Source: Peptostreptococcaceae bacterium
GTDB taxonomy: Bacteria; Bacillota; Clostridia; Peptostreptococcales; BM714
Direction: 5' to 3'
Length of the DNA: 35,897 bases
Assembly (NCBI GenBank): GCA_016649995.1
Contig: JAENWJ010000013.1
Span: 1-35,897 of the forward strand
Shown: positions 4,310-35,897 of the stretch, one piece after another
Layout of the letters: each line of letters opens with the position of its first letter
Position numbering within the stretch: position 1 is the stretch's first letter
Made by a program: the position numbers and the translations under genes
Notes under the pieces: generated by a model
What the model was told of the DNA's origin: nothing
Seen by the model: the letters and a program-made list of their open reading frames with translations, nothing else
The model's database searches: none

Positions 4310-4333
4310 ATTAAAACCACTTATACTAAGGGG

Positions 4334-5713
4334 GTGGAGGATATCAGCAGAAAAAAAATAAGCGAAAAATACAGCCTGAATCCGGCGCAGATATTGGTTT
4401 TGGGATTTGTGGCCATGATTTTGATAGGGGCGGGGCTTTTAACACTTCCGGCTGCTTCGGCAAATGGGGAAAGTGTGGGGTTTGTAAATGCAATATTTAC
4501 AGCCACCTCGGCTGTTTGTGTCACAGGGCTTGTTGTCGGTGATACTGCGTCGTATTGGACACTCTTCGGAAAGGGTGTAATATTGATTCTTATCCAAGTC
4601 GGAGGGCTCGGCTTCATGACAATGACTACTCTGATAGCATTGGTCGTAGGCAGGAGGATTTCCCTTAAGGAACGCCTTCTTATGCAAGAGGCTTTAAATC
4701 AGGTTACAATATCGGGCGTTGTTAGGCTTACAAAAAATATAATAATTGGCACAATAGCAATAGAGACAATAGGAGCAGCATTTTTATCATTTCGCTTTGT
4801 GCCCATGTATGGATGGGCAAAGGGAATTGGTTTTGCCGTATTCCATTCTGTTTCTGCATTTTGCAATGCGGGATTCGATTTAATGGGGAATTTCGGAAGC
4901 CTTGCTCGTTTTGCCGATGATGCGTTGGTAACCCTTTCAGTGGGTTTTCTTATTATACTCGGCGGATTGGGATTTACGGTTCTGGTTGATCTTTTTGAAT
5001 TCGGAACAGCGAAAAAAAGGATTAACCGAAGGTTTTCCCTTCACTCGAAGCTGACGCTTTACATGACAGGCATTCTTATACTGATTGGCTTCATATCGAT
5101 ATTTGTTTTTGAATTCAATAATCCGCAAACGATGGGGAATCTGTCGGGAAAAGGTAAGATTCTTTCGTCGCTGTTTCATTCGATAACGCCGCGTACTGCT
5201 GGATTCAACACTATTTCTATGGATGGGGCGACTCTTTCAACCAAGATTTTAACTATAATACTTATGTTTGTAGGAGGTGCGCCAGGTTCAACAGCTGGGG
5301 GAATAAAAGTAACGACATTTGGAATCCTTCTTTTTACTATGGCTTCGATGGCGAATGGAAGAGATGAAACTGAAATCTTTAAAAGAAGGATTCCTAGGGA
5401 TATTGTCAACAGGGCGTTGGCTTTAGTGAGTGCCTCTTTTACAATTGTTATAGTAGGTACAATGCTGTTGTCGTTTACGGAAACAGGGGTAGATTTTATG
5501 GACATATTGTTTGAAACGACCTCTGCATTTGGAACCGTTGGTCTAAGTCTTGGAATCACGCCGCACTTAAGCAATTCGGGGAAAATAATAATAGCCTTTG
5601 TAATGTTCATAGGCCGTTTGGGTCCCATGACATTGGCTGTAGCCGTTGCTCACAGGCAGCAGAAGCGGAAGAAACTCATAAAATATCCGGAAGGCAAGGT
5701 AAGTGTAGGATAA
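4334..5713 (+). CDS. ktrB: KtrB/TrkH-family potassium uptake channel subunit
   Basis: A membrane channel subunit of about 459 aa that moves K+ (Na+-coupled in KtrB) and is gated by cytosolic KtrA. Four P-loop repeats are visible, each with its selectivity glycine: SAVCVTGL, SAFCNAGF, TPRTAGF and SAFGTVGL. Hydrophobic helices flank each loop. The N-terminus LNPAQILVLGFVAMILIGA matches KtrB proteins. The listed start is GTG at 4334; AAGGGGG sits too close (4328-4334) for a normal ribosome site and GGAGG lies just inside the frame, so the exact start is uncertain. The partner ktrA follows 15 nt downstream. KtrB (rather than TrkH) is preferred on length and the adjacent single-RCK partner. Confidence 0.93.
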   Translation: MEDISRKKISEKYSLNPAQILVLGFVAMILIGAGLLTLPAASANGESVGFVNAIFTATSAVCVTGLVVGDTASYWTLFGKGVILILIQVGGLGFMTMTTLIALVVGRRISLKERLLMQEALNQVTISGVVRLTKNIIIGTIAIETIGAAFLSFRFVPMYGWAKGIGFAVFHSVSAFCNAGFDLMGNFGSLARFADDALVTLSVGFLIILGGLGFTVLVDLFEFGTAKKRINRRFSLHSKLTLYMTGILILIGFISIFVFEFNNPQTMGNLSGKGKILSSLFHSITPRTAGFNTISMDGATLSTKILTIILMFVGGAPGSTAGGIKVTTFGILLFTMASMANGRDETEIFKRRIPRDIVNRALALVSASFTIVIVGTMLLSFTETGVDFMDILFETTSAFGTVGLSLGITPHLSNSGKIIIAFVMFIGRLGPMTLAVAVAHRQQKRKKLIKYPEGKVSVG

Positions 5714-5728
5714 AGGAGGGGGATTGAC

Positions 5729-6379
5729 ATGAAAAAACAATTTGTAGTTATAGGTCTCGGTCGGTTCGGTTCAAGCCTGGCCAAGACGCTTTATTCTTTG
5801 GGGCATGAGGTGTTGGCGGTAGATGAGAACGAAGAGGCCGTGCAGGGAATAGTAGAGCATGTTACACATGCAGTGCAGGCCGACGCAACGGATGAATCTT
5901 CCTTAAATGCATTGGGCATACGAAACTTTGATGTGGCGGTTATAGCCATAGGAAATGACATGCAGGCATCCATATTAGTGACGCTTATGGTGAAGGAATT
6001 GGGACTGAAATATGTCGTTTCGAAAGCGATGAATGATCTTCATGCGAAGGTCCTTTATAAAACAGGTGCTGACAGGGTTGTCTTCCCCGAGAGGGAAATG
6101 GGAGTGAAAATAGCCAACAACCTTATTTCATCCAACATACTTGATTATATAGAATTGTCGGAGGATTACAGCGTTGTTGAAACCCAGACCCTTCCGAAAT
6201 GGATTGGGAAAAATCTGCTTGAAATCAACATGCGTGCCAAGTTCGGTGTAAATGTAATGGCTATCAAGCGGAATTCCAAGATAAATATTTCCCCAAATGC
6301 TGATGATATATTAGAAGAGGGCGATACCCTTATAGTAGTTGGCAATAACGAAGATCTAAGCAGATTGAGCGAAAGGTAG
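5729..6379 (+). CDS. ktrA: KtrA/TrkA-type regulatory subunit of potassium uptake
   Basis: A cytosolic RCK protein of 216 aa that binds nucleotide and gates KtrB as a ring. RCK_N starts with the Rossmann motif GLGRFGSSLAKTL; the acidic residue after the second strand is in VDENEEAV, and QADATDESSL follows. RCK_C covers about 135-216 (NVMAIKRNSKINISPNADDILEEGDTLIVVG). A strong ribosome site AAAGGAGGGGG precedes the ATG. It is cotranscribed with ktrB and followed 3 nt later by the methyltransferase gene. Confidence 0.95.
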   Translation: MKKQFVVIGLGRFGSSLAKTLYSLGHEVLAVDENEEAVQGIVEHVTHAVQADATDESSLNALGIRNFDVAVIAIGNDMQASILVTLMVKELGLKYVVSKAMNDLHAKVLYKTGADRVVFPEREMGVKIANNLISSNILDYIELSEDYSVVETQTLPKWIGKNLLEINMRAKFGVNVMAIKRNSKINISPNADDILEEGDTLIVVGNNEDLSRLSER

Positions 6380-6382
6380 AAA

Positions 6383-7177
6383 ATGAAGAAAATTATTTCA
6401 AAGCAGAACGAAACAATAAAAAGAATAAAATCCCTTGAAAAGAAAAAATACCGTGAGAAGTACAGTGAAATACTTCTCGAGGGATATAGACTTATAGAGG
6501 ATGCAGCTGATAGCGTCTTGATTATTAAGACTGTTTTGTATGTCGAATCTGTTGACAAGAAGAAGGCTATTCTTGTCGAGAGGCTTTCCGAATCTGGAAC
6601 GGAAGCGATTGAAGCAGACGAAGAAGTGTTCGAATACATATCTGATACAGTCAATTCACAGGGCATTTTAGCAATTGCTAAAATGCCATCGAATGAATTT
6701 GAAGACATCCCTCAAAAGCCCCAAGGATTCATGATTTATCTTGATTGTATGCAAGATCCGGGGAACCTTGGTACGGTTATAAGAACTGCCGATGCCGCCG
6801 GAGCAGAGTGCGTCGCTATTTCCTCCGGCAGCGTAGACGCATACAACGCAAAAGTGCTTAGAAGTGCAATGGGTTCGGTGTTTCATTTGCCGGTAATACA
6901 AAAGGTTCCTGGCAAGCAATTTATTGAAGATTTGAAGCGTGGTGGATACAGGATAATAGCCGCCGATTTGAAGGGAGCAAGGGAATACAGAGAAATGGAC
7001 TATGGCGAAAAGGTTTGCCTTGTCATAGGCAACGAGGGATCAGGTATTCGGGACGAAATACTTGACATTTGTGATGAATCAGTTAAAATACCTATTATAG
7101 GTCGTGCAGAGTCGCTAAATGCTTCGGTGGCAGCTGGAATTTTGCTTTACGACATAGCAATGAAAAGAAATTGTTAG
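6383..7177 (+). CDS. TrmH/SpoU-family RNA 2'-O-methyltransferase (YsgA/RlmB-like)
   Basis: An SPOUT-class methyltransferase, 264 aa, using S-adenosylmethionine to methylate a ribose, most likely in 23S rRNA. The N-terminal substrate-binding domain starts with KKIISKQNETIKRIKSLEKKKYR-like sequence. The trefoil-knot domain carries the three family motifs: DPGNLGTVIRTADAAGA (about 128-144), VIGNEGSGI (about 214-222) and SLNASVAAGILLYD near the C-terminus. In Bacillus the homologue ysgA lies directly upstream of pheST, as here, which argues that the pheS position itself is ancestral. The target nucleotide cannot be told from sequence. The ATG starts 3 nt after the ktrA stop. Confidence 0.92.
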   Translation: MKKIISKQNETIKRIKSLEKKKYREKYSEILLEGYRLIEDAADSVLIIKTVLYVESVDKKKAILVERLSESGTEAIEADEEVFEYISDTVNSQGILAIAKMPSNEFEDIPQKPQGFMIYLDCMQDPGNLGTVIRTADAAGAECVAISSGSVDAYNAKVLRSAMGSVFHLPVIQKVPGKQFIEDLKRGGYRIIAADLKGAREYREMDYGEKVCLVIGNEGSGIRDEILDICDESVKIPIIGRAESLNASVAAGILLYDIAMKRNC

Positions 7178-7214: not shown

Positions 7215-7243
7215 TTGTAAATATTTGTGCCCTATGATATAAT
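7215..7243 (+). promoter_or_regulatory. promoter of the yqzL-like gene and pheS T-box transcript
   Basis: TTGTAA (7215-7220), a 17-nt spacer, and TATAAT (7238-7243) preceded by TG at 7235-7236 (extended -10). A nearby TTGACA at 7201-7206 is too far from the -10 (31 nt) to be its partner. Confidence 0.7.
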
Positions 7244-7284: not shown

Positions 7285-7374
7285 ATGAAGAAAAGTACCA
7301 GATTCTTTTGGAATGTTTTTCTGATTACTGGAAATGTCAATGCATATTTGATTTACAAGGATTTGGCTTCATAG
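7285..7374 (+). CDS. YqzL-like small protein, 29 aa
   Basis: A 29-codon frame reading MKKSTRFFWNVFLITGNVN then AYLIYKDLAS, with AAAGGGG (7268-7274) 10 nt upstream of the ATG. The pattern F-W-N-V-F-x-x-T-G-N-x-x-A-Y-L-x-Y-K matches the small YqzL family of Firmicutes as I remember it; the family's function is unknown to me. It sits between the promoter and the pheS T-box, so its mRNA probably also carries the T-box. It contains three Phe codons (two adjacent), so a role as a leader peptide cannot be fully excluded, though it ends well before the T-box. Confidence 0.6.
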   Translation: MKKSTRFFWNVFLITGNVNAYLIYKDLAS

Positions 7375-7399
7375 TGTTTAAAATACATAGGCTTAGATG

Positions 7400-7616
7400 G
7401 AAAAAAGTAAGCGAATTAATGCCGATAAGAGAGTGGATGCCATAGGCTGGAAGCATCCGCGGGAAAATGGTTCGCCCAAGTTCGTTCCGGAGCTTCCGAC
7501 TTGAACTTTAAGTAGAGTTGGACGTGTTATTGCGTTAAAAATATCGAGTGGCCGAGAAATCGGTTATTAGGGTGGTACCGCGAAAACTTTCGTCCCTTGT
7601 GGAGAAGGTTTTTTTT
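7400..7616 (+). promoter_or_regulatory. T-box leader of the pheS operon
   Basis: The T-box core AGGGTGGTACCGCG is at 7569-7582. It is followed by a terminator AACTTTC...TCC / GGA-GAAGGTT (7585-7610) and a T run (7609-7616). The Stem I AGAGAG signature is near 7425-7433. TTC triplets suitable as phenylalanine specifier occur at 7481-7483 and 7485-7487, the latter just before CGGAGC as in the thrS leader. I judge the start of the element by eye. It lies 230 nt before the present pheS but only 45 nt before the native pheS remnant, for which it evidently evolved. Confidence 0.92.
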
Positions 7617-7660
7617 ATTTTTGTAAAAATGTTCGCAGGCAAAATTGAAAGGAGAAGGAC

Positions 7661-7726
7661 ATGAAGGAAAAACTCCAGCAAATACTGGGAAAAGCCAAAG
7701 GGTGTAGAGCCACCCTCGTTTCATAA
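7661..7726 (+). pseudogene. 5' remnant of the displaced native pheS
   Basis: GAAAGGAGAAGG is followed by an ATG at 7661 and a 21-residue frame beginning MKEKLQQILGKAK, then GCRATLVS and TAA. The first 13 residues match the usual N-terminus of Firmicutes PheS (MKEKL-x-x-I-x-x-A), at the expected distance behind the T-box terminator with its own good ribosome site. The frame then loses resemblance, as if cut. It holds no Phe codon, which argues against an attenuation peptide. I read it as the stump of the native pheS left when the present pheST replaced it. Confidence 0.7.
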
Positions 7727-7846
7727 TCATGAAGTATATGATTTCATAAGAAATGGGTTTAATTCAGGTTTAGTAGTGTGTAATTTGAGTGAATATAACG
7801 TATTATTGTAAAATTTGAAAAAATATTAACAACGGAGGGAAAATTG

Positions 7847-8884
7847 ATGAAAGAAGAATTGAACACTTTGCTCCTCGAAGGGGAGAAAAGGATTGCAATG
7901 GCACAAAATGAAGTTGAATTGCAAGAGGTCAAGGCGTCGATTCTCGGAAAAAAGGGATCACTCACCAAGATATTAAAAGAAATCCCTAAGCTTGATGTTT
8001 CAATTCGTCCAGAAATAGGGAGAGAAGCGAATAAGTTGAAAAAAAGTTTTACAGCTTTGATTGAATCACGCATGGAGGAATTAAAACTAAAGGCCTCGGA
8101 AATTTCTCCTGATTTTGATTGCAGTGTGCCCGGCGTATTGCCGAATAGTGGTGGATTACATCCGATTACTCAGATGTGCTATGATTTGAACGATGCTTTT
8201 CGTTCAATGGGATTTGAAATATTTCAGGAAAAAGATATTACAAGTGAATTATACGCTTTTGACAAATTAAACTTTCCACCTGAACATCCTGCAAGAGAGA
8301 GTATGGATACCTATTGGCTGAACGGTCATGATACAGGGCAGGGTGGTGACAGGCTTTGCCTGCGTCCACATCTAACTGGAGGCAGTGTCCGCTACATGCA
8401 GACACACAAGCCCCCATATCGTTTTGTGTATCCGGGAAGAGTGTACCGTAACGAGACGACCGATGCACGTCACGAGAGGGCATTTTTTCAGTATGAGGCA
8501 TTGATTGTCCAAGAAGATTTCAATTTTTCTTCGGGTAAAATCATGATAAAAAGCATTTTGTCAAAGGTTTTTGGCCGTGAGGTGCCGGTACGGATGCGTT
8601 TGGGATTTTTCCCGTTTGTAGAGCCTGGATTTGAGATCGACATGGGGTGTTTGGTGTGTGGCGGGAAAGGTTGCAGTGTCTGCAAACATGTTGGTTGGAT
8701 AGAAATAATGCCTGGTGGATCACCGCATCCCAATGTTCTTCGTGCTGCTGGAATTGATCCTGACAAGTATACAGGATTTTACGTAAACATCGGTTTGGAC
8801 CGCTTGGTCATGATGCGTTACGGTGTGGATGATGTTCGGCTTTTTCACAGTGCAGACCTTAGATTTCTAAGTCAGTTCAAATAG
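7847..8884 (+). CDS. pheS: phenylalanyl-tRNA synthetase alpha subunit, foreign-type with Cys4 insert
   Basis: Catalytic subunit of the (alpha-beta)2 PheRS, 345 aa. An N-terminal coiled coil (about 1-90) precedes the class II core: HPITQMCYDLNDAFRSMGFEI (motif 1), YRNETTDARHERAFFQYEAL (motif 2) and GLDRLVMMRYGVDDVR (motif 3). Unlike ordinary Firmicutes PheS it has CLVC-GGKG-CSVC (C268, C271, C276, C279) followed by KHVGWIEI, a likely zinc-binding insert that I associate with PheS of candidate-phyla and related bacteria. Arginine codons are about 15 CGN to 7 AGA/AGG, the reverse of thrS nearby. ATG 7847 is preferred over TTG 7844, with GGAGGG 7 nt upstream. pheT follows after 12 nt. Confidence 0.95.
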   Translation: MKEELNTLLLEGEKRIAMAQNEVELQEVKASILGKKGSLTKILKEIPKLDVSIRPEIGREANKLKKSFTALIESRMEELKLKASEISPDFDCSVPGVLPNSGGLHPITQMCYDLNDAFRSMGFEIFQEKDITSELYAFDKLNFPPEHPARESMDTYWLNGHDTGQGGDRLCLRPHLTGGSVRYMQTHKPPYRFVYPGRVYRNETTDARHERAFFQYEALIVQEDFNFSSGKIMIKSILSKVFGREVPVRMRLGFFPFVEPGFEIDMGCLVCGGKGCSVCKHVGWIEIMPGGSPHPNVLRAAGIDPDKYTGFYVNIGLDRLVMMRYGVDDVRLFHSADLRFLSQFK

Positions 8885-8896
8885 GAGGGAAATCAA

Positions 8897-11338
8897 ATGA
8901 AATTATCATTGAATTGGATAAAGGAATATGTAAAGATTCCAAATGATATGGACCTGTCACGTCTCGCCTACGATCTGACGATGTCCACCGTTGAAGTTGA
9001 GGGTGTCCTTGAGTTGGCGAGTAAATTTGACAATATGGTTGTTGGTGTTGTTAAAGAGGTTTTTCCGCATCCCAATGCCGACAGGCTGAAAGTATGCAAG
9101 ACTGATATAGGCAACGATGAAGTGCGTGACATCGTATGTGGCGGAATAAATTTGACCGAGGGCATGAAAGTAGCTGTTGCGCGTCCGGGCGCAAAGGCTA
9201 GATGGCATGGCGCAGGAGAACTTGTTGAAATAGGCAATGTAAAATTACGTGGTGTAGAGAGTTACGGCATGATTTGCGCTGCATCGGAAATAGGGTTGTC
9301 TGAATTATTCCCAAGCACTGAAGAAGCGGAAATATTGGATCTTTCCGCTTTTGGAGCCAAGGCTGGAGAAGGGCTGGCGGATGCTCTGGGCCTTAATGAT
9401 GTTATTCTCGAAATAGATAATAAATCAATATCAAACCGTCCTGACTTGTGGGGACATTACGGCATCGCTCGTGAGGTTGCCGCATTGTATAATCTTCCAC
9501 TTATGGATTTTGAAGCCTTTGTTCCACCAAACACACCCGATTTTACAATCAATGTGGAAGATACTCAGAGATGTCCCAGATATATTGCCGTCAGAATCGA
9601 AGGACTTTCGGTAAAACCATCTCCATTCGAGATGCAAAGTCGTATTTGGCGGGTTGGCATGCGACCGATCAACGCATTGGTGGATATTACAAATTATGTG
9701 ATGTTGGCGACGGGACAACCGACTCACGCTTTTGATGCAGATAACATTGAAGGAAACATAACTGTTAGGCGTGCCAAAGAAGCAGAGGAATTACTGCTTT
9801 TAAATGATCAAACACTGACACTTTCAACGGATGATTTGGTAATAACCGACAACAAGAGTGCCCTTGGTTTGGCCGGGGTCATGGGTGGATCGAAGGACTC
9901 GGTTCTGCCTGAAACTGACAAGGTTATCCTCGAAATTGCCAATTTTAAAGCGACAAATATTAGACGTACTGCTGCCAGGTATGAGACCCGAACGGAAGCG
10001 GCGACGCGTTATGAAAAAGCTTTAGATCCAGAGCGGGCTGATTTTGCATTATCAATGGCTATGGGGCTGTTCACAGAATTATATCCGAATATAGCTGTCA
10101 CTGGGTTTAGAGATATCTATCCTGAGCCTCTCAAGCGGACAGAGATTGATGTTTCACTAAGCTGGTTGGAGAAGAGATTGGGTATACGTATTCCCAATGA
10201 ATATATAACTGACAAGCTTGGTCAACTTGGTTTTGATGTGAGTTATGATAAGGACACCCTGCATGTTGTAAGCCCTACATGGCGTTCAACTGGTGATGTT
10301 TCCATTCCGGATGATATCATGGAAGAAATCGCAAGAATGTATGGTTATGAGAGGTTCGATCCGAAACCCATCACCACTTCATTTGATGGGGCGATCAATC
10401 AGATCAAAATTGATCTTGACAGGAATATCAAGGAATATTTGGCATTCAGATGTGGGATGCAAGAAGTCTTTACGTATCCTTGGATGAGCGATGAATATGT
10501 TGAAGCTGTGATGCAGAGCACAGAAGGGATGCTTTCTCTTTCAACGCCGCCATCACCCAGTGAAAGCCACATACGCTCAACGCTCTTGCCCAACATCTGT
10601 GAGGCAGTCTCAAACAATCTCAGGTACTTCAATGAGTTTATGATATTCGAGACGGCACAAGTGATGCATGACCATAGCTATTCAGCGCCATATGATGCAA
10701 AAGAATCTCTTCCTCTTGAGCTGACAAACACGGCCGGCGCCTTGGTTGGCAATGTTGCGAATGTGAATCAGCTTTTCCGGAGAGCCAAGGGAATAATTGA
10801 GGCCATGCCTGGTTATGTGCACATGGAACCGTTGACTTTTGATAAACTTGAGAAGCCCGTATGGGCAGATGGCGTTGTCTGGCTCAATATCCTGCATCAA
10901 GGGGAAAGGGTGGGAGACCTTGCCTTGCTTTCGAAGAAAGCTTCTCTTGATTGCGGAATTGACAACTCTTCCGTGTTGCTGTTCGAATTCAATATGGACA
11001 CCTTGAAAACACATCCATCAAGAACCAACGAATTCGCTCATCTTCCTGGATATCCTCTGGTAGACTACGATGTTTCAATGTTGTTTGACCAGTCGGTGAA
11101 GTGGGAAGAGATACTGAATGTCATTGTTGGCAAGGTTGGAGCGGATGACTTGATCCAGGATGTATCTTTTGTGGATGAGTATCGAGGAAAGCAGATCCCA
11201 ACCAATAAAAAGTCTGTCACTTTCAGAGTGGTAATAGGGTCGCTCCATAAGACGTTGACATCTGAGGAGATAGACAGTAAGGCAAATGCAATTATCGAGC
11301 GTTTGAAGAAATCTCTTGGTGGCGAACTTAGGAATTAA
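8897..11338 (+). CDS. pheT: phenylalanyl-tRNA synthetase beta subunit, foreign-type
   Basis: Beta subunit of PheRS, 813 aa, for tRNA binding and editing of mischarged Tyr. Domains in order: N-terminal arm (MKLSLNWIKEYVKIP), EMAP/OB tRNA-binding fold (about 40-160, PHPNADRLKVCKTD), B3/B4 (about 220-390), B5 (about 405-480), the inactive synthetase-like core and the C-terminal FDX-ACB domain (about 720-813). The segment EIDNKSISNRPDLWGHYGIARE differs from the usual Firmicutes EITPNRPDCLS form and supports a foreign origin shared with pheS. Arginine codons again include many CGT/CGC. AGGAGGG precedes the ATG. A remnant of a different pheT C-terminus lies at 11560-11718. Confidence 0.96.
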   Translation: MKLSLNWIKEYVKIPNDMDLSRLAYDLTMSTVEVEGVLELASKFDNMVVGVVKEVFPHPNADRLKVCKTDIGNDEVRDIVCGGINLTEGMKVAVARPGAKARWHGAGELVEIGNVKLRGVESYGMICAASEIGLSELFPSTEEAEILDLSAFGAKAGEGLADALGLNDVILEIDNKSISNRPDLWGHYGIAREVAALYNLPLMDFEAFVPPNTPDFTINVEDTQRCPRYIAVRIEGLSVKPSPFEMQSRIWRVGMRPINALVDITNYVMLATGQPTHAFDADNIEGNITVRRAKEAEELLLLNDQTLTLSTDDLVITDNKSALGLAGVMGGSKDSVLPETDKVILEIANFKATNIRRTAARYETRTEAATRYEKALDPERADFALSMAMGLFTELYPNIAVTGFRDIYPEPLKRTEIDVSLSWLEKRLGIRIPNEYITDKLGQLGFDVSYDKDTLHVVSPTWRSTGDVSIPDDIMEEIARMYGYERFDPKPITTSFDGAINQIKIDLDRNIKEYLAFRCGMQEVFTYPWMSDEYVEAVMQSTEGMLSLSTPPSPSESHIRSTLLPNICEAVSNNLRYFNEFMIFETAQVMHDHSYSAPYDAKESLPLELTNTAGALVGNVANVNQLFRRAKGIIEAMPGYVHMEPLTFDKLEKPVWADGVVWLNILHQGERVGDLALLSKKASLDCGIDNSSVLLFEFNMDTLKTHPSRTNEFAHLPGYPLVDYDVSMLFDQSVKWEEILNVIVGKVGADDLIQDVSFVDEYRGKQIPTNKKSVTFRVVIGSLHKTLTSEEIDSKANAIIERLKKSLGGELRN

Positions 11339-11377
11339 TGAGTCTGCAATCAATCATATTGCGATTCGTAATCAATA

Positions 11378-11559
11378 GGGTTCTTCGTCAAATTGTGTTG
11401 GCAGAAAATCATAAGGATAGATAGAGTTGTTTGTAAAAGCAGTTTGAGGAGATGAAAAAATCTCTTTAAGCTGTTTTTGCTTTTGCGACTTGGAAACTGA
11501 TTTAAAATAACGTATAGCAGTTTTTGAAGTTGCGTCAATATCTTATACGCCTGAAGTAG
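11378..11559. mobile_element. truncated IS end, possibly ISL3-like
   Basis: GGGTTCTTCGTCAAATTGTG starts at 11378 and closely resembles the terminal inverted repeats of ISL3-family elements as I remember them. To its right, the minus strand is open from within the pheT remnant down to 11350; its codons include KRFFHLLKLLLQTTLSILMI and then run through the presumed repeat (CQHNLTKNP). This could be the C-terminus of a transposase. No matching second end is seen before the native pheT remnant begins, so the element would be truncated there. It sits exactly at the right junction of the foreign pheST. The IS family is a guess. Confidence 0.45.
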
Positions 11560-11718
11560 CCCCGGGTCAAGCAAATCGAGGCAGGCTGCAAGAACGTAAC
11601 CTATGCCCTCTTGTTCCAATCAACGGAAAGAACACTCAAGGATGAAGAAGTCAATCTTCATTTCGGAGACATTGTAAGGGCTTTGGAGATTGAACTTAAA
11701 GCGGAACTTATGAAATAA
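11560..11718 (+). pseudogene. 3' remnant of the displaced native pheT
   Basis: The frame between the TAG at 11557 and the TAA at 11716-11718 reads VKQIEAGCKNVTYALLFQS, then TERTLKDEEVNLHFGDIVRA and LEIELKAELMK. It aligns along its length with the end of the FDX-ACB domain of PheT: the resident foreign pheT ends RGKQIPTNKKSVTF...HKTLTSEEID...KKSLGGELRN. It is a different, Firmicutes-like version. It has no start codon, no ribosome site and no upstream part. Together with the stub at 7661 it brackets the foreign operon and marks where the native pheST ended. Confidence 0.85.
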
Positions 11719-11783: not shown

Positions 11784-12344
11784 GTGACAACAAAAAACAA
11801 GGCGATTGTAAAAATATACGGACAGGAATATGCTATAGTAAGCGATAAAGACAGGGAACAAATACAGCGCTTGTCCAACTATGTGGATGACAAGATGAGG
11901 GAAATATCCGGAAAGAATAGGAAGCTGAGTACTGCTATGGTTGCTGTTCTGGCTGCGCTCAACATGTCCGAGGAGCTTTTTGGCGAGAAGGAAAAGATTG
12001 ATGAGCTCGAAGAAACAAACCAGGCTCCAGACAAAGCCATTAAGGAAATGGAAAATGAAATTGCCGACTTGAAGGGGCTGCTTAATGAGAGGGCTTTCGA
12101 TATAGAGCGTCTTGAAAATGCTGTTGAAGAAGAGAAAAAGGCTTCCGAAGCATTCAAAAGAAACGAGGAGCACTTTAAGAAAGCCATAGCCTCAAGAGAA
12201 AAAAATATTGAAGAAAAAGACGAAGGGAATCGCAATCTCGAGAAAAAGATTGATGAGCTTAAGGACAAGCTGGTCGAATGCGAAGTGAAGCTTATTCAGA
12301 GTAAAACGGAACTCGCGGAATTCATGGATGCTTTTGAGAATTAG
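11784..12344 (+). CDS. zapA: ZapA-like cell division protein with long coiled coil
   Basis: About 186 aa. Residues 1-65 form a ZapA domain (KAIVKIYGQEYAIVS, then a basic stretch and a helix with MVAVLAALNMSEELFGEKEK), which bundles FtsZ at midcell. The remaining 120 residues are a charged, heptad-rich coiled coil, longer than in classical ZapA (about 85-110 aa). GTG 11784 is preferred because AAAAGGGG ends 9 nt upstream; TTG 11778 is possible but too close. Its place after pheT and before a U32 peptidase and mutS2 is standard in Clostridia, which shows that the surrounding gene order survived the pheST exchange. Confidence 0.87.
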   Translation: MTTKNKAIVKIYGQEYAIVSDKDREQIQRLSNYVDDKMREISGKNRKLSTAMVAVLAALNMSEELFGEKEKIDELEETNQAPDKAIKEMENEIADLKGLLNERAFDIERLENAVEEEKKASEAFKRNEEHFKKAIASREKNIEEKDEGNRNLEKKIDELKDKLVECEVKLIQSKTELAEFMDAFEN

Positions 12345-12462: not shown

Positions 12463-14862
12463 ATGAAAGCCGATAAAATTGAACTGCTTTCGCCATCTGG
12501 CGATATGGAATGCGTAATTGCGGCCGTAAAGGCGGGCGCAGATGCTGTATATCTCGGGTGGAAGCTCTTTGGAGCACGAAGCTCGTCAAAGAACTTTACA
12601 ATCGAGGAGCTTAAGGAAGCGATAAGGTATTGCCACATCAGAGGAGTTAAAGTCTATGTGACGGTTAATACCCTCATATTTAATGATGAGATTAAAAAGC
12701 TATTGAAATATATAGAAAAACTTTATGCTATGGATGCAGACGCGTTGATAATTCAAGATTTAGGGGTGCTAGCAATCGTGAAAAAATATTTTGGCGATTT
12801 CGAGTGCCATGCAAGTACACAAATTACTTTGCACAATAGCTTTGGCGCTAAAGCGGCAATGGACATTGGAATTGACAGGGTAGTTGCGGCAAGAGAAATG
12901 GAGCTGCCGGAAATAGAGGCAATGATAAGAAACCAAGGAACTGAGGTAGAGGTTTTCATTCATGGCGCCTTGTGCATAAGTTATTCGGGGCAATGCCTTA
13001 TGAGTAGCGTAATAGGAGGCAGAAGCGGAAACCGGGGCACATGCGCACAGCCATGCAGAAGGCAGTACGAGTTGCTGGAGAAAACATCAGGCCAGGAAGC
13101 TGTTTTGGACAATGGATATCTCCTTAGCACAAAGGACTTGTTTTCAGCGTATGGGCTGAAAGAAATAGTGGCATCGGGAGTCTCTTCCTTGAAGATAGAG
13201 GGAAGGATGAAAAGTCCGGAATATGTATTCTTCGTGACAAGGTTCTATAGGAATGCATTGGCAGCTATGGAAAAAGGCGGCATTCCTCTGTTCGAACCGG
13301 AAGACATGAAGGAACTGGCCCAAATTTTTAACAGGAAATTCACAAAGGGATTTCTTATGTCCGAAGACAAGGGAAGTCTCGTTAACTCAGAGAGCCCGGG
13401 CAACAGAGGTGTCGCACTGGGAACTGCGAAGGCGGAAGCAAACGGAAAGATATATATTTTACTCAAGGAGCCACTTTCACTAGGAGACGGCATTCAATTC
13501 CGAAGGGGAAGCGAGAGTTATGGCTGCCGAATTGACAATAGAAACTGGTATGGAAATGAGCTTGAGGCAAAGGTGCCAGGCGAAACTTTTGAGATAGAGA
13601 ACAGATGGCGAATGAAGGGTGTCTATGAGGCATTTAAGACACACGATTCTAGCATGGAGCGCCGGTTGGCCATAGAAATGAATAAGGCTGACAAAAGGGT
13701 GCCTCTCCGCATGGAGGTGCGGGCTATACTTGGAGAACCATTTCGCATTTCCTTTAAGGATGGAGATGGGCGAAAGGTAGAAGTTTTGTCGGAGTATATC
13801 GTTCAAGAAGCCGCAAAAAGGCCCACAGGACGAGTCGTAATGGAAGAAAAACTTGGAAGGTTGGGTGCTACGGCATACAGTATTGAAGAAAGTGTTTATG
13901 AAATGGATGATGGGATCTATGTGCCGGTATCTATTTTGAATGAAACAAGACGAAAGGCTGCCGATTTTATGGACGATGAAAGAGCGGTCGTTCATACCGA
14001 AAGAAAGCCGGTTGAAATCTTGAAGATAGAGGAAAGAACTGCAAAGCCATACGTAGTGGAAAGAAAAGTTTCGGTTACAGCTAGAACCATTTCACAGGTT
14101 AAGGTCGCGCTCAGCGAAGGCGCTGATAGGATATACTTCAAGGGGGCTGAAAACTTAGATGAGGTGCTCGGATTATCGGATAAGGTTGTATACTCTCCAT
14201 TCAAAATATCGGGAGACAGAGAAATAAAAGAAATGCTCCTTGTTGTCGAGCGGCTTGGTTTAAAAGAAATTCAGGTTGGAAATTTAGGGCAGATGCGTGC
14301 GCTTAGGGATTCCGGTATGCTTATTCATGGAGATTTTTCTCTAAATGTTGCAAATGACTATTCGATTAGACTTTTGGAAGAGACTTTTCCGGAGCTTGAA
14401 ACCGTTTGCCTTTCACCCGAGATGAACTTAAGCCAGATAAAGGGGCTTTCGCAATCTGTTGCAGGCCAAGAAATGATAGTCTACGGAAGGCTGCCTGTGA
14501 TGACACTCAATCACTGCCCTCTGAATAAAAGCTTCGGGGTTTGCTTGGAAAATGATTGTGAAAATAGAAAACTCAGCCTAAGGGATGCGAAGGGTTATGA
14601 ATTCCCGATGAGGCTTAAGAATTGCCACGCAGAAATTTTTAATTCGGTTAGAATCCTGACGGCAGCAAGATTGCTTGAAAGCCCTCCCGAAAATGTGGTT
14701 TATTGGCGAATGGAGCTTCTTGATGAAGATTTCGATACTGCTTGCCGGCTTATACGCTTCCACAAAAGGGCAATTGTGGATGGGGATATCGACTGGCAAT
14801 ACTTGGAAGAATTAAAACAATCGGATTATACACGAGGCCATTTTTTCAAAAGTGGAGTTTAG
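12463..14862 (+). CDS. U32 family peptidase / RNA hydroxylation-type protein
   Basis: 799 aa, the long form of the U32 family with a C-terminal collagenase-like DUF3656 region. The N-terminal TIM-barrel-like part begins KIELLSPSGDMECVIAAVKAGADAVYLG. The family signature is present as EVFIHGALCISYSGQCLMS (C171, C178), followed by GNRGTCAQPCRRQY, giving the four cysteines tied to an iron-sulfur cluster in relatives. Members such as RlhA and TrhP act in hydroxylation of rRNA or tRNA, so RNA modification is as likely as proteolysis. ATG 12463 has GAGGGG 8 nt upstream. It follows the zapA terminator and sits 12 nt before mutS2. Confidence 0.9.
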   Translation: MKADKIELLSPSGDMECVIAAVKAGADAVYLGWKLFGARSSSKNFTIEELKEAIRYCHIRGVKVYVTVNTLIFNDEIKKLLKYIEKLYAMDADALIIQDLGVLAIVKKYFGDFECHASTQITLHNSFGAKAAMDIGIDRVVAAREMELPEIEAMIRNQGTEVEVFIHGALCISYSGQCLMSSVIGGRSGNRGTCAQPCRRQYELLEKTSGQEAVLDNGYLLSTKDLFSAYGLKEIVASGVSSLKIEGRMKSPEYVFFVTRFYRNALAAMEKGGIPLFEPEDMKELAQIFNRKFTKGFLMSEDKGSLVNSESPGNRGVALGTAKAEANGKIYILLKEPLSLGDGIQFRRGSESYGCRIDNRNWYGNELEAKVPGETFEIENRWRMKGVYEAFKTHDSSMERRLAIEMNKADKRVPLRMEVRAILGEPFRISFKDGDGRKVEVLSEYIVQEAAKRPTGRVVMEEKLGRLGATAYSIEESVYEMDDGIYVPVSILNETRRKAADFMDDERAVVHTERKPVEILKIEERTAKPYVVERKVSVTARTISQVKVALSEGADRIYFKGAENLDEVLGLSDKVVYSPFKISGDREIKEMLLVVERLGLKEIQVGNLGQMRALRDSGMLIHGDFSLNVANDYSIRLLEETFPELETVCLSPEMNLSQIKGLSQSVAGQEMIVYGRLPVMTLNHCPLNKSFGVCLENDCENRKLSLRDAKGYEFPMRLKNCHAEIFNSVRILTAARLLESPPENVVYWRMELLDEDFDTACRLIRFHKRAIVDGDIDWQYLEELKQSDYTRGHFFKSGV

Positions 14863-14874
14863 AGGAGGGGCAAT

Positions 14875-17238
14875 GTGAACAAACGCGTTCTTGTTACACT
14901 TGAATACAATAAAATAATTGAACAGATGAAGACATTCTGCTTCTCCGAAATGGGGAGAAACCGATTGGGAGCAATAGAGCCCTGGTCCGATCCGAAAATC
15001 ATAGAAAGCAAGCAGAGGGAAACAGCCGAGGCCTTTTCGATGATTACAAGAAGAGGGCGTATGCCCTTCGGTGCATTCTATGATGTCAACAAGTATATAC
15101 AGACGGCTAGGATTGGATCATATCTTATTCCAAAGCAGCTGCTTGAGGTTTCTGATTCTCTTCGCACAACGAGGCGGGTAAAGCAGTATATACAGGATGA
15201 CGCATTGGATGGCATTCATGAAATACTTGACTCCATAGCATCCGGCATTATGTCAGCAAGACATATTGAAGAAGAAATTGACAGATGCATAGAGGGCGAG
15301 GAAGAAATATCGGACCATGCAAGCCCTAAGCTTGCAAACATAAGAAGAGGAATAGAGGCCAAGAATGCTTCAATAAGGACTAAGCTTCAGGGTATAATCG
15401 CGTCTCCGAGCATACAGAAATATCTTCAGGATGCGCTAATCACAATAAGGGACGATCGCTTTTGCATTCCAGTCAAGCAGGAATACAGAAATCAGGTTCC
15501 GGGAATGATCCACGACAGGTCATCAAGCGGATCGACGCTCTTCATTGAGCCTATGTCCGTAGTTAACATTAATAACGAATTGAAGGAACTCAAGCTAAAG
15601 GAACAGGCTGAAATAGAGCGAATACTTTATGAAATCACGGCGCTTGTAGGTGAATCTGCCGATTCGATAATAAACAATCAATCCCTTATGATTGAACTGG
15701 ACATAATTTTTGCAAAGGCTAGGCATGCCTCTGAAATAAACGGTGTTGAGCCGGTCATATCAACGGATGGTTTTATGCACATAAAACAGGGAAGACACCC
15801 ATTGATACCGGCAAATGAAGTTGTTCCTACAGATGTTTGGATAGGGAAGGACTTTAAAGCGCTCCTCATTACGGGGCCGAATACGGGAGGGAAGACTGTT
15901 ACCCTTAAAACCGTAGGACTATTGACCTTGATGGCGCAGTCCGGATTTCATATACCTTCAAACCATGGGACAAAAATAAATGTATATAGGGAAATATTCG
16001 CAGATATAGGTGATGAGCAGTCAATAGAGCAGAGCCTTAGCACATTCTCATCGCATATGAAAAATTTGATTGGAATACTATCAGATGCCGGTCAAGGAGA
16101 CCTGGTACTTCTCGATGAATTGGGAGCCGGGACGGACCCCACCGAAGGGGCGGCTCTTGCCATAGCAATAATTGAGAATCTCTACGCTAAATCGGTAACT
16201 ATGATAGCCACAACTCATTACAGCGAGCTTAAGCACTATGCACTTACAAAGGACGGGGTCGAAAACGCATCGGTTGAATTTGATATAAAGACACTCAGTC
16301 CTACATATCGCTTGCTGATAGGGATTCCCGGCAAGTCAAACGCCTTTGAAATTTCAAGCAAGCTCGGTCTTACTGATAACATTATTGAAAAGGCCAAGAA
16401 ATATCTAAAGCGTGAGAATATTGAATTTGAGGAGATACTGACAAAAATACAGGAAGACAGGAAGACCGCCGAAGAGGACAGGGACGAGGCCCTGCGAATA
16501 AGGATAGAGGCGGAAAAGATGAAAAAAAGCTACAATGACAAGTATGGACACCTTAAAGAGCAAAGGGAAAAAGAACTCAACAAGGCTAAGGAAGAAGCTA
16601 GGAAGATAATAAAGGAAGCCAAAATTTCGGCTGAGGCGCTCATAAAGGAATTAAGGAATGCGGGAAGTTCAAGCGACAAGGAAGCAAACAGATTGATAGA
16701 CGATACAAGAAAGGCAATTAAAGGTAAGCTTGAGGAGACATACGAGGGCATGGGCGATGTGGCGGTAAATACAGAGATAAAGCCTGAAGACCTAAGGCCT
16801 GGTTTGTCAGTCCTTATATTGAATATCAACCAGGAAGGCACGGTAGTGACGAAGCCTGATAGAAACGGAGACCTGACCGTACAAGCCGGCATAATGAAGA
16901 TAAACGTCAACTACAAAAACCTCACGATTCTCGGAAAAGCCAAGGCAAGGATGGAATCCAGAATCCAGAATCTTACAAAATCAAAGAGCTCCTCAATAAG
17001 CCCCGAGATAGACATACGTGGTACAAATGTGGAAGAGGCCATTTATATCGTCGACAAGTATCTCGACGATGCCTCACTTGCAAGGCTTCAGAATGTGAGA
17101 ATTATACACGGAAAGGGAACAGGCCTATTACGGAAGGGTCTGCATGATCATTTCAGGAAGCATCCGCATGTGAAATCCTTCAAGGTTGGGGAATTCAATG
17201 AAGGCGGGATTGGAGTGACCGTAGTTGAAATCAAATAA
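14875..17238 (+). CDS. mutS2: endonuclease MutS2 / ribosome-rescue ATPase
   Basis: 787 aa. The ATPase core has Walker A GPNTGGKT (334-341), Walker B DELGAGTDPTEGAAL and the ABC signature region SLSTFSSHMKN. A long lysine/glutamate-rich coiled coil follows (about 510-620). The C-terminal Smr domain begins IDIRGTNVEEA and carries IIHGKGTGLLRKG. In other bacteria MutS2 suppresses recombination or, in Bacillus, splits collided ribosomes. The start is GTG at 14875 behind AGAGGAGGGG. Its last bases overlap the broken DUF523 gene. Confidence 0.97.
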   Translation: MNKRVLVTLEYNKIIEQMKTFCFSEMGRNRLGAIEPWSDPKIIESKQRETAEAFSMITRRGRMPFGAFYDVNKYIQTARIGSYLIPKQLLEVSDSLRTTRRVKQYIQDDALDGIHEILDSIASGIMSARHIEEEIDRCIEGEEEISDHASPKLANIRRGIEAKNASIRTKLQGIIASPSIQKYLQDALITIRDDRFCIPVKQEYRNQVPGMIHDRSSSGSTLFIEPMSVVNINNELKELKLKEQAEIERILYEITALVGESADSIINNQSLMIELDIIFAKARHASEINGVEPVISTDGFMHIKQGRHPLIPANEVVPTDVWIGKDFKALLITGPNTGGKTVTLKTVGLLTLMAQSGFHIPSNHGTKINVYREIFADIGDEQSIEQSLSTFSSHMKNLIGILSDAGQGDLVLLDELGAGTDPTEGAALAIAIIENLYAKSVTMIATTHYSELKHYALTKDGVENASVEFDIKTLSPTYRLLIGIPGKSNAFEISSKLGLTDNIIEKAKKYLKRENIEFEEILTKIQEDRKTAEEDRDEALRIRIEAEKMKKSYNDKYGHLKEQREKELNKAKEEARKIIKEAKISAEALIKELRNAGSSSDKEANRLIDDTRKAIKGKLEETYEGMGDVAVNTEIKPEDLRPGLSVLILNINQEGTVVTKPDRNGDLTVQAGIMKINVNYKNLTILGKAKARMESRIQNLTKSKSSSISPEIDIRGTNVEEAIYIVDKYLDDASLARLQNVRIIHGKGTGLLRKGLHDHFRKHPHVKSFKVGEFNEGGIGVTVVEIK

Positions 17239-35805: not shown

Positions 35806-35897
<92 letters not shown>

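Follow-up and report, generated by a model that had tools for sequence, protein, structure and literature searches.

In xenologous gene displacement in situ, as reportedly described by Omelchenko et al. (2003, Genome Biol 4:R55), a foreign ortholog occupies the place of the native gene within a conserved gene order. When an essential gene has been displaced in place, trees are usually the only evidence for it. Replacement of PheRS by horizontal gene transfer is known from spirochaetes, which carry an archaeal-type PheRS, and belongs to the wider subject of homeoallelic synthetases (Andam and Gogarten 2011, PMC3191353). Here we describe a pheST locus on one whole contig of a Peptostreptococcaceae bacterium (C13; 35,897 nucleotides, hereafter the window) from a draft genome of 1.84 Mb in 103 contigs that was scored 100% complete. 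Very probably, the native pheST operon was displaced in place by a foreign pheST, with the ends of the native operon and its Phe-specific T-box left behind and with the foreign PheRS now serving as the sole PheRS.

The locus resembles xenologous displacement in situ in that a foreign ortholog stands in the native slot and gene order is conserved, but it differs in that both ends of the displaced operon and the T-box are still visible. Among the papers searched, none described a case that retained all three. The spirochaete replacement resembles it in that a functionally equivalent but divergent PheRS supplanted both subunits at once. That replacement is ancient, however; here the old and the new form are both bacterial, and scars mark an exchange made in place. 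With the Phe-specific pheST T-box of Firmicutes (RF00230) the locus shares its leader structure, its UUC specifier and its location upstream of pheS, except that the genes downstream are xenologs and that about 13 codons of the original gene are left. The process is a known one, of which the locus is a new example in an unusually good state of preservation. A single locus here displays the two breakpoints, the native sensor that was kept and what is left of the decaying old genes, and so opens the individual steps of a synthetase swap to testing.

Native genes flank the pheST operon

From rlmB to mutS2, the annotated features of the locus lie on the + strand. To the left of pheST is rlmB, encoding a SpoU-type rRNA methyltransferase (6383–7177), which occupies the same place in relatives of the order. 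To the right are zapA (11784–12344), found after pheT in those relatives, a U32-family peptidase gene (12463–14862) in the order seen in relatives, and mutS2 (14875–17238), which is 86% identical to that of the sister genome G001. The first-pass annotation had called the flanking gene order ordinary, and ktrB-ktrA-rlmB on one side and zapA-U32-mutS2 on the other is indeed the usual arrangement of relatives. In a joint tree of KtrA, KtrB, RlmB and MutS2 the host paired with G001 (100/100), and the two grouped with family f6 and with G002. The families represented by f6 and G002 keep the order ktrB-ktrA-rlmB-[T-box]-pheS-pheT-zapA-U32/mutS2 with native PheST. The unreplaced form that the annotation expected in sister genomes was found in these nearest families, where f6 genomes (L139, L142 and L145) carry native pheST in the same slot with the same T-box; there is one sister species, G001, and its assembly is without the region from rlmB to the end of the U32 gene. 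The flanks are native, and the genes that they enclose are foreign to the host.

The resident PheRS is foreign to the host order

Resident pheS (7847–8884) and pheT (8897–11338) are each present as a single full copy, and no native pheS or pheT was found elsewhere in the genome. PheS contains the class II core (PF01409, E 1.9e-73) and the N-terminal domain (PF02912, E 4.4e-16), and its TIGR00468 score of 227.6 bits lies just below the equivalog cut-off of 237.45. PheT scored 613.7 bits against TIGR00472, above the cut-off of 402.65 bits, and has the full set of B3_4, B5, FDX-ACB and tRNA_bind domains. These matches suggest that the resident PheS represents a divergent subfamily, and its presence as a single copy argues that it functions in the only PheRS of the cell. 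A hairpin followed by a U-rich stretch (11433–11480) constitutes the terminator of the resident operon (66-nt fold of −32.9 kcal/mol, z −8.1). The codon fit of pheS is the lowest among the 19 genes of the window and that of pheT is among the four lowest, but the base composition of pheST is ordinary, with a G+C content near that of the neighbouring genes, which argues that the swap is not very fresh. We also considered insertion mediated by an IS element and rejected it, as a genome-wide comparison gave no significant further copy of the spacer at 11330–11570.

A branch with a support of 100 and a length of 1.89 separated the two types in the PheS tree. Constraining the window PheS to group with PheS of the host order cost 280 log-likelihood units (p-AU 5.6e-45), and the PheT tree agreed on the foreign placement. 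Members of the foreign type are 60–93% identical to one another and about 40% identical to the host order's own type. When PheS from 394 genomes of the order was compared with the resident protein, identity was bimodal, at 59–100% in 48 genomes (window included) and at most 42% in the others listed. Beyond the order but within the class the resident type occurred in 8 of about 370 genomes, and in Synergistota in 9 of 61; it was the sole PheS match in 18 of the 20 named genomes checked. The genome of Candidatus Paralachnospira sangeri (L088) has a foreign-type PheS together with a second PheS (32% identical), and possibly holds both forms.

Both trees and the AU test place the resident proteins away from the host's relatives, as expected from the proposal in the first-pass annotation. 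Its description of pheST as foreign holds with respect to the host order but does not extend to an origin outside Firmicutes, since gut Lachnospiraceae and Oscillospiraceae commonly carry the type and the subclade that contains the window includes Bacillota. Resident PheS fell in a 12-row starred set (96) and PheT in an 11-row starred set (99). Both sets include L031, L033 and L035 as well as MAGs of Synergistota (Synergistaceae) and Fibrobacterota (Fibrimonadaceae), and the rows nearest to the resident proteins were L031/L183 (Nt197P3bin80), L033 and L035. Identity to a bacterium of another family was 85% for PheS and 71% for PheT, with the whole foreign-type signature in common. Nt197P3 denotes the P3 gut section of the termite Neocapritermes taracua (PMC7024585), and the termite sample that gave L031 also yielded the Synergistaceae MAG L038; to judge from their names, MAGs coded Mx356, Nc350, Nx346 and Po218 also come from termite samples. 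The nearest kin of the resident PheST are MAGs derived at least partly from termite guts and belonging to three phyla, Bacillota, Synergistota and Fibrobacterota. A strict termite-only clade was neither demonstrated nor rejected (p-AU 0.104). The patchy occurrence of the type in the host's order, its class and Synergistota, together with the termite-associated subclade that the window joins, points to transfer by shared habitat. A donor with matching flanking DNA was not found among the nearest relatives, so the joints can be placed only to within tens of bases. In L038 we also observed, in tandem ahead of the foreign pheS, a second copy of roughly the first 100 codons of that gene with an internal deletion (4319–4882 and 5965–7038).

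Remnants of native pheS and pheT bracket the resident operon

The first-pass annotation had described a stub of a different pheS start at 7661–7726 and a remnant of a different pheT C-terminus at 11560–11718. Both coordinates hold, and both remnants align with native PheS and PheT of relatives, although only about the first 13 codons of the stub are native. The native-matching part of the stub is MKEKLQQILGKAK, whereas the full open reading frame reads MKEKLQQILGKAKGCRATLVS before its stop codon, the last 8 codons running into other sequence. This 21-codon frame comes with a ribosome-binding site. Against profiles of the PheS N-terminus the stub scored 20.6 bits with the native-order profile versus 12.7 bits with the foreign-type profile, and resident PheS gave the reverse result (12.1 versus 18.7 bits). 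Only one of 2,289 start-initiated 13-mers in the window reached 20.6 bits, namely the stub itself; in related loci 11 of 33,354 did so, and all 11 were genuine native pheS starts. Thus, the left scar is not a chance match. The stub is short, and its assignment draws its strength from the profile score together with its position.

Between the stub and resident pheS lies a spacer (7727–7846) that includes the resident ribosome-binding site, GGAGGG, and that is probably 5′ sequence of the donor. When the spacers were compared by eye with upstream and downstream DNA of the nearest relatives, no clear similarity was apparent. Direct repeats at the left junction (7634–7657 and 7833–7856; 75% over 24 nt) were judged to be a chance similarity of AT-rich and SD sequences.

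The right scar consists of about the last 50 codons of native pheT, encoding part of the FDX-ACB domain (PF03147, E 1.1e-9). It is an open stretch of 52 codons with recognizable homology from position 11569 (KQIEAG...), and it matches positions 751–797 of the 798 in pheT_bact (E 1.4e-6). Models of the PheT C-terminus gave 41.4 bits for the native type versus 27.7 bits for the foreign type, and a whole-genome search with the native-type profile recovered the scar with an E of 2.3e-9. Relative to live genes of f6, codon positions 1 and 2 are better kept than position 3, as expected of former coding sequence. Four of the eight positions that are invariant in 18 native PheT proteins are changed (G to V at the joint, A to T, R to Q and R to M). 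Given displacement of the native operon, what remains on the left is a dead mini-ORF, and the right scar is a relic that decays without being translated. When 60 genomes with the foreign type were searched by profile, a native pheT scar was kept only in the window's genome. A second candidate in G300 (E 1.1e-4) proved to be a chance match inside an ABC-F-like gene, away from rlmB and zapA.

A Phe-specific T-box precedes the foreign genes

A T-box in the leader adds to what the first-pass annotation had noted, as do the terminator hairpin and the recurrence of this pheST type elsewhere. The leader RNA (7385–7600) scored 122.1 bits against RF00230 (E 8.5e-27), exceeding the gathering score of 93 bits, and the same element precedes native pheS in genomes of f6 and f3. 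The specifier codon is UUC (Phe; 7481–7483), which is invariant in 8 aligned leaders. Upstream, a putative native promoter, TTGTAA-17-TATAAT (7215–7243), with a TG before the second hexamer, was recognized from 10 of 12 matches to the consensus. The interval between this promoter and the T-box contains an ORF of 29 amino acids (7285–7374) that resembles YqzL (PF14006, E 3e-7, 31 bits, cut-off 27) and is possibly a conserved small gene linked to the operon.

Sixty bases separate the T-box from the start of the left-scar ORF. In the f6 genome G006 the native pheS start lies at about the same distance after the T-box, with the SD sequence and ATG placed alike. The host promoter and the Phe-specific T-box are intact ahead of the left scar, and no terminator-like site was found on the + strand between the T-box and resident pheS (7601–7846), so that read-through from the host's tRNA-Phe sensor into the foreign operon is expected. 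From the leader sequence we would predict that uncharged tRNA-Phe induces the foreign genes through the T-box. A possible promoter within the foreign spacer (TTGAGT-18-TAAAAT, 7785–7814) was too weak to support a claim.

Probable replacement of the native operon and alternative explanations

The ancestral host operon would have consisted of the promoter, the Phe T-box, pheS and pheT, followed by zapA-U32-mutS2. Into this operon would have come a donor segment of a gut-associated divergent PheRS type, made up of a leader of ~120 bp, pheS, pheT and the terminator. The left junction would lie around codon 13 of native pheS and the right one some 50 codons short of the native pheT stop, and the ~3.2 kb of native sequence between them would have been lost. 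Because the joints fall inside coding sequence and the two versions share only ~40% protein identity, we favour a history in which the foreign segment first inserted into the native operon and the rest of that operon was later deleted or decayed, over one double-crossover. Classical homologous exchange through the genes or the flanks is unlikely. The foreign PheRS would now charge host tRNA-Phe as the only PheRS, and the foreign operon's own terminator would now separate resident pheST from zapA.

The draft state of the genome, with its 103 contigs, and the strong dissimilarity of the resident genes from those of the host raise the question of an assembly artefact, in which sequence from a different gut bacterium was wrongly assembled between the two native operon ends. 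We regard this as very improbable. Two separate misjoins inside one operon would be needed, no native pheS or pheT was found elsewhere in a genome scored 100% complete, and the G+C content of the resident genes is close to that of their neighbours. Moreover, a fresh misjoin would leave unexplained why the right scar has lost half of its invariant residues. Still less credible, to the point of being negligible, is that host-type pheST diverged very fast in place and that the scars are products of local duplication. The unchanged operon position would fit such a history, but the identity of both subunits to those of a bacterium of another family, with the entire foreign-type signature common to both, does not, and the trees refute it (AU test, p 5.6e-45).

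Displacement of the native operon by a foreign one leaves room for two routes. The foreign genes may have landed inside or next to the native operon, part of which continued to function for a while before its genes were deleted, a variant to which we give slightly less than an even chance. The decay of the right scar speaks for it, as do the coexisting forms of SerRS in Methanosarcina barkeri, which are described as such a transitional state (PMC3191353), and the two PheS proteins of Paralachnospira sangeri. On the other hand, no half-decayed intermediate was seen, and the position of the foreign operon between both native ends means that its insertion probably broke at least one native gene.

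The foreign type occupies the native slot in other lineages

Outside the window, at least two other lineages of the order (f2 g20 and f11 g147) also carry pheST of the resident type at the native position. In f2 g20 (L127 9117–13300, G024; L189, G145) the order is T-box, foreign pheST, a ZapA-like ORF and mutS2, and in L127 the foreign pheST begins 33 nt behind the T-box. The genes belong to another subclade than those of the window; this is a second, scarless in-place replacement. In f11 g147 (L183 7561–19998, G343; L202, G385) the foreign pheST lies directly behind rlmB, and ~6 kb with gltP-, phoU- and pst-like genes separates it from zapA-mutS2. These loci are a third in-place case, with an added insertion. 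Most of the other foreign-type pheST loci that were fetched lie away from the native slot.

The foreign type carries Tyr at a conserved Phe-pocket position

The Ala at the position of E. coli PheS A294 is reported to be under stringent conservation, and the enzyme accepts p-chlorophenylalanine once this residue is Gly (PMC5440470). In our alignment the corresponding residue was Tyr in 71 of 72 foreign-type PheS proteins and Phe in the remaining one, versus Ala in all 69 others. The resident PheS has Tyr312 at this position, with GFYVNIG in place of GFAFGMG. More generally, in the foreign type GFY[V/I/T]NIG replaces GFAxGxG and RPHLTG replaces RTxTSP. The pocket Tyr gives a concrete reason to ask what selects for the foreign type. 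One speculative answer, which we consider rather unlikely, is that a mobile PheRS subfamily with a rebuilt Phe pocket moves repeatedly between phyla in gut communities because it tolerates a Phe analogue or PheRS inhibitor that the usual enzyme cannot, and that it repeatedly displaces native pheST, in some lineages within the native slot.

Other features of the window

A search for defence systems with PADLOC gave no match. An L20 ribosomal protein leader, an ordinary autoregulatory element, extends from 2735 to 2863 and overlaps the listed start of the infC ORF, at 2800; the true infC start probably lies later. The contig ends with the first 91 bases of a 16S rRNA gene (35806–35897), a usual place for an assembly to break at the repeated rRNA operon.
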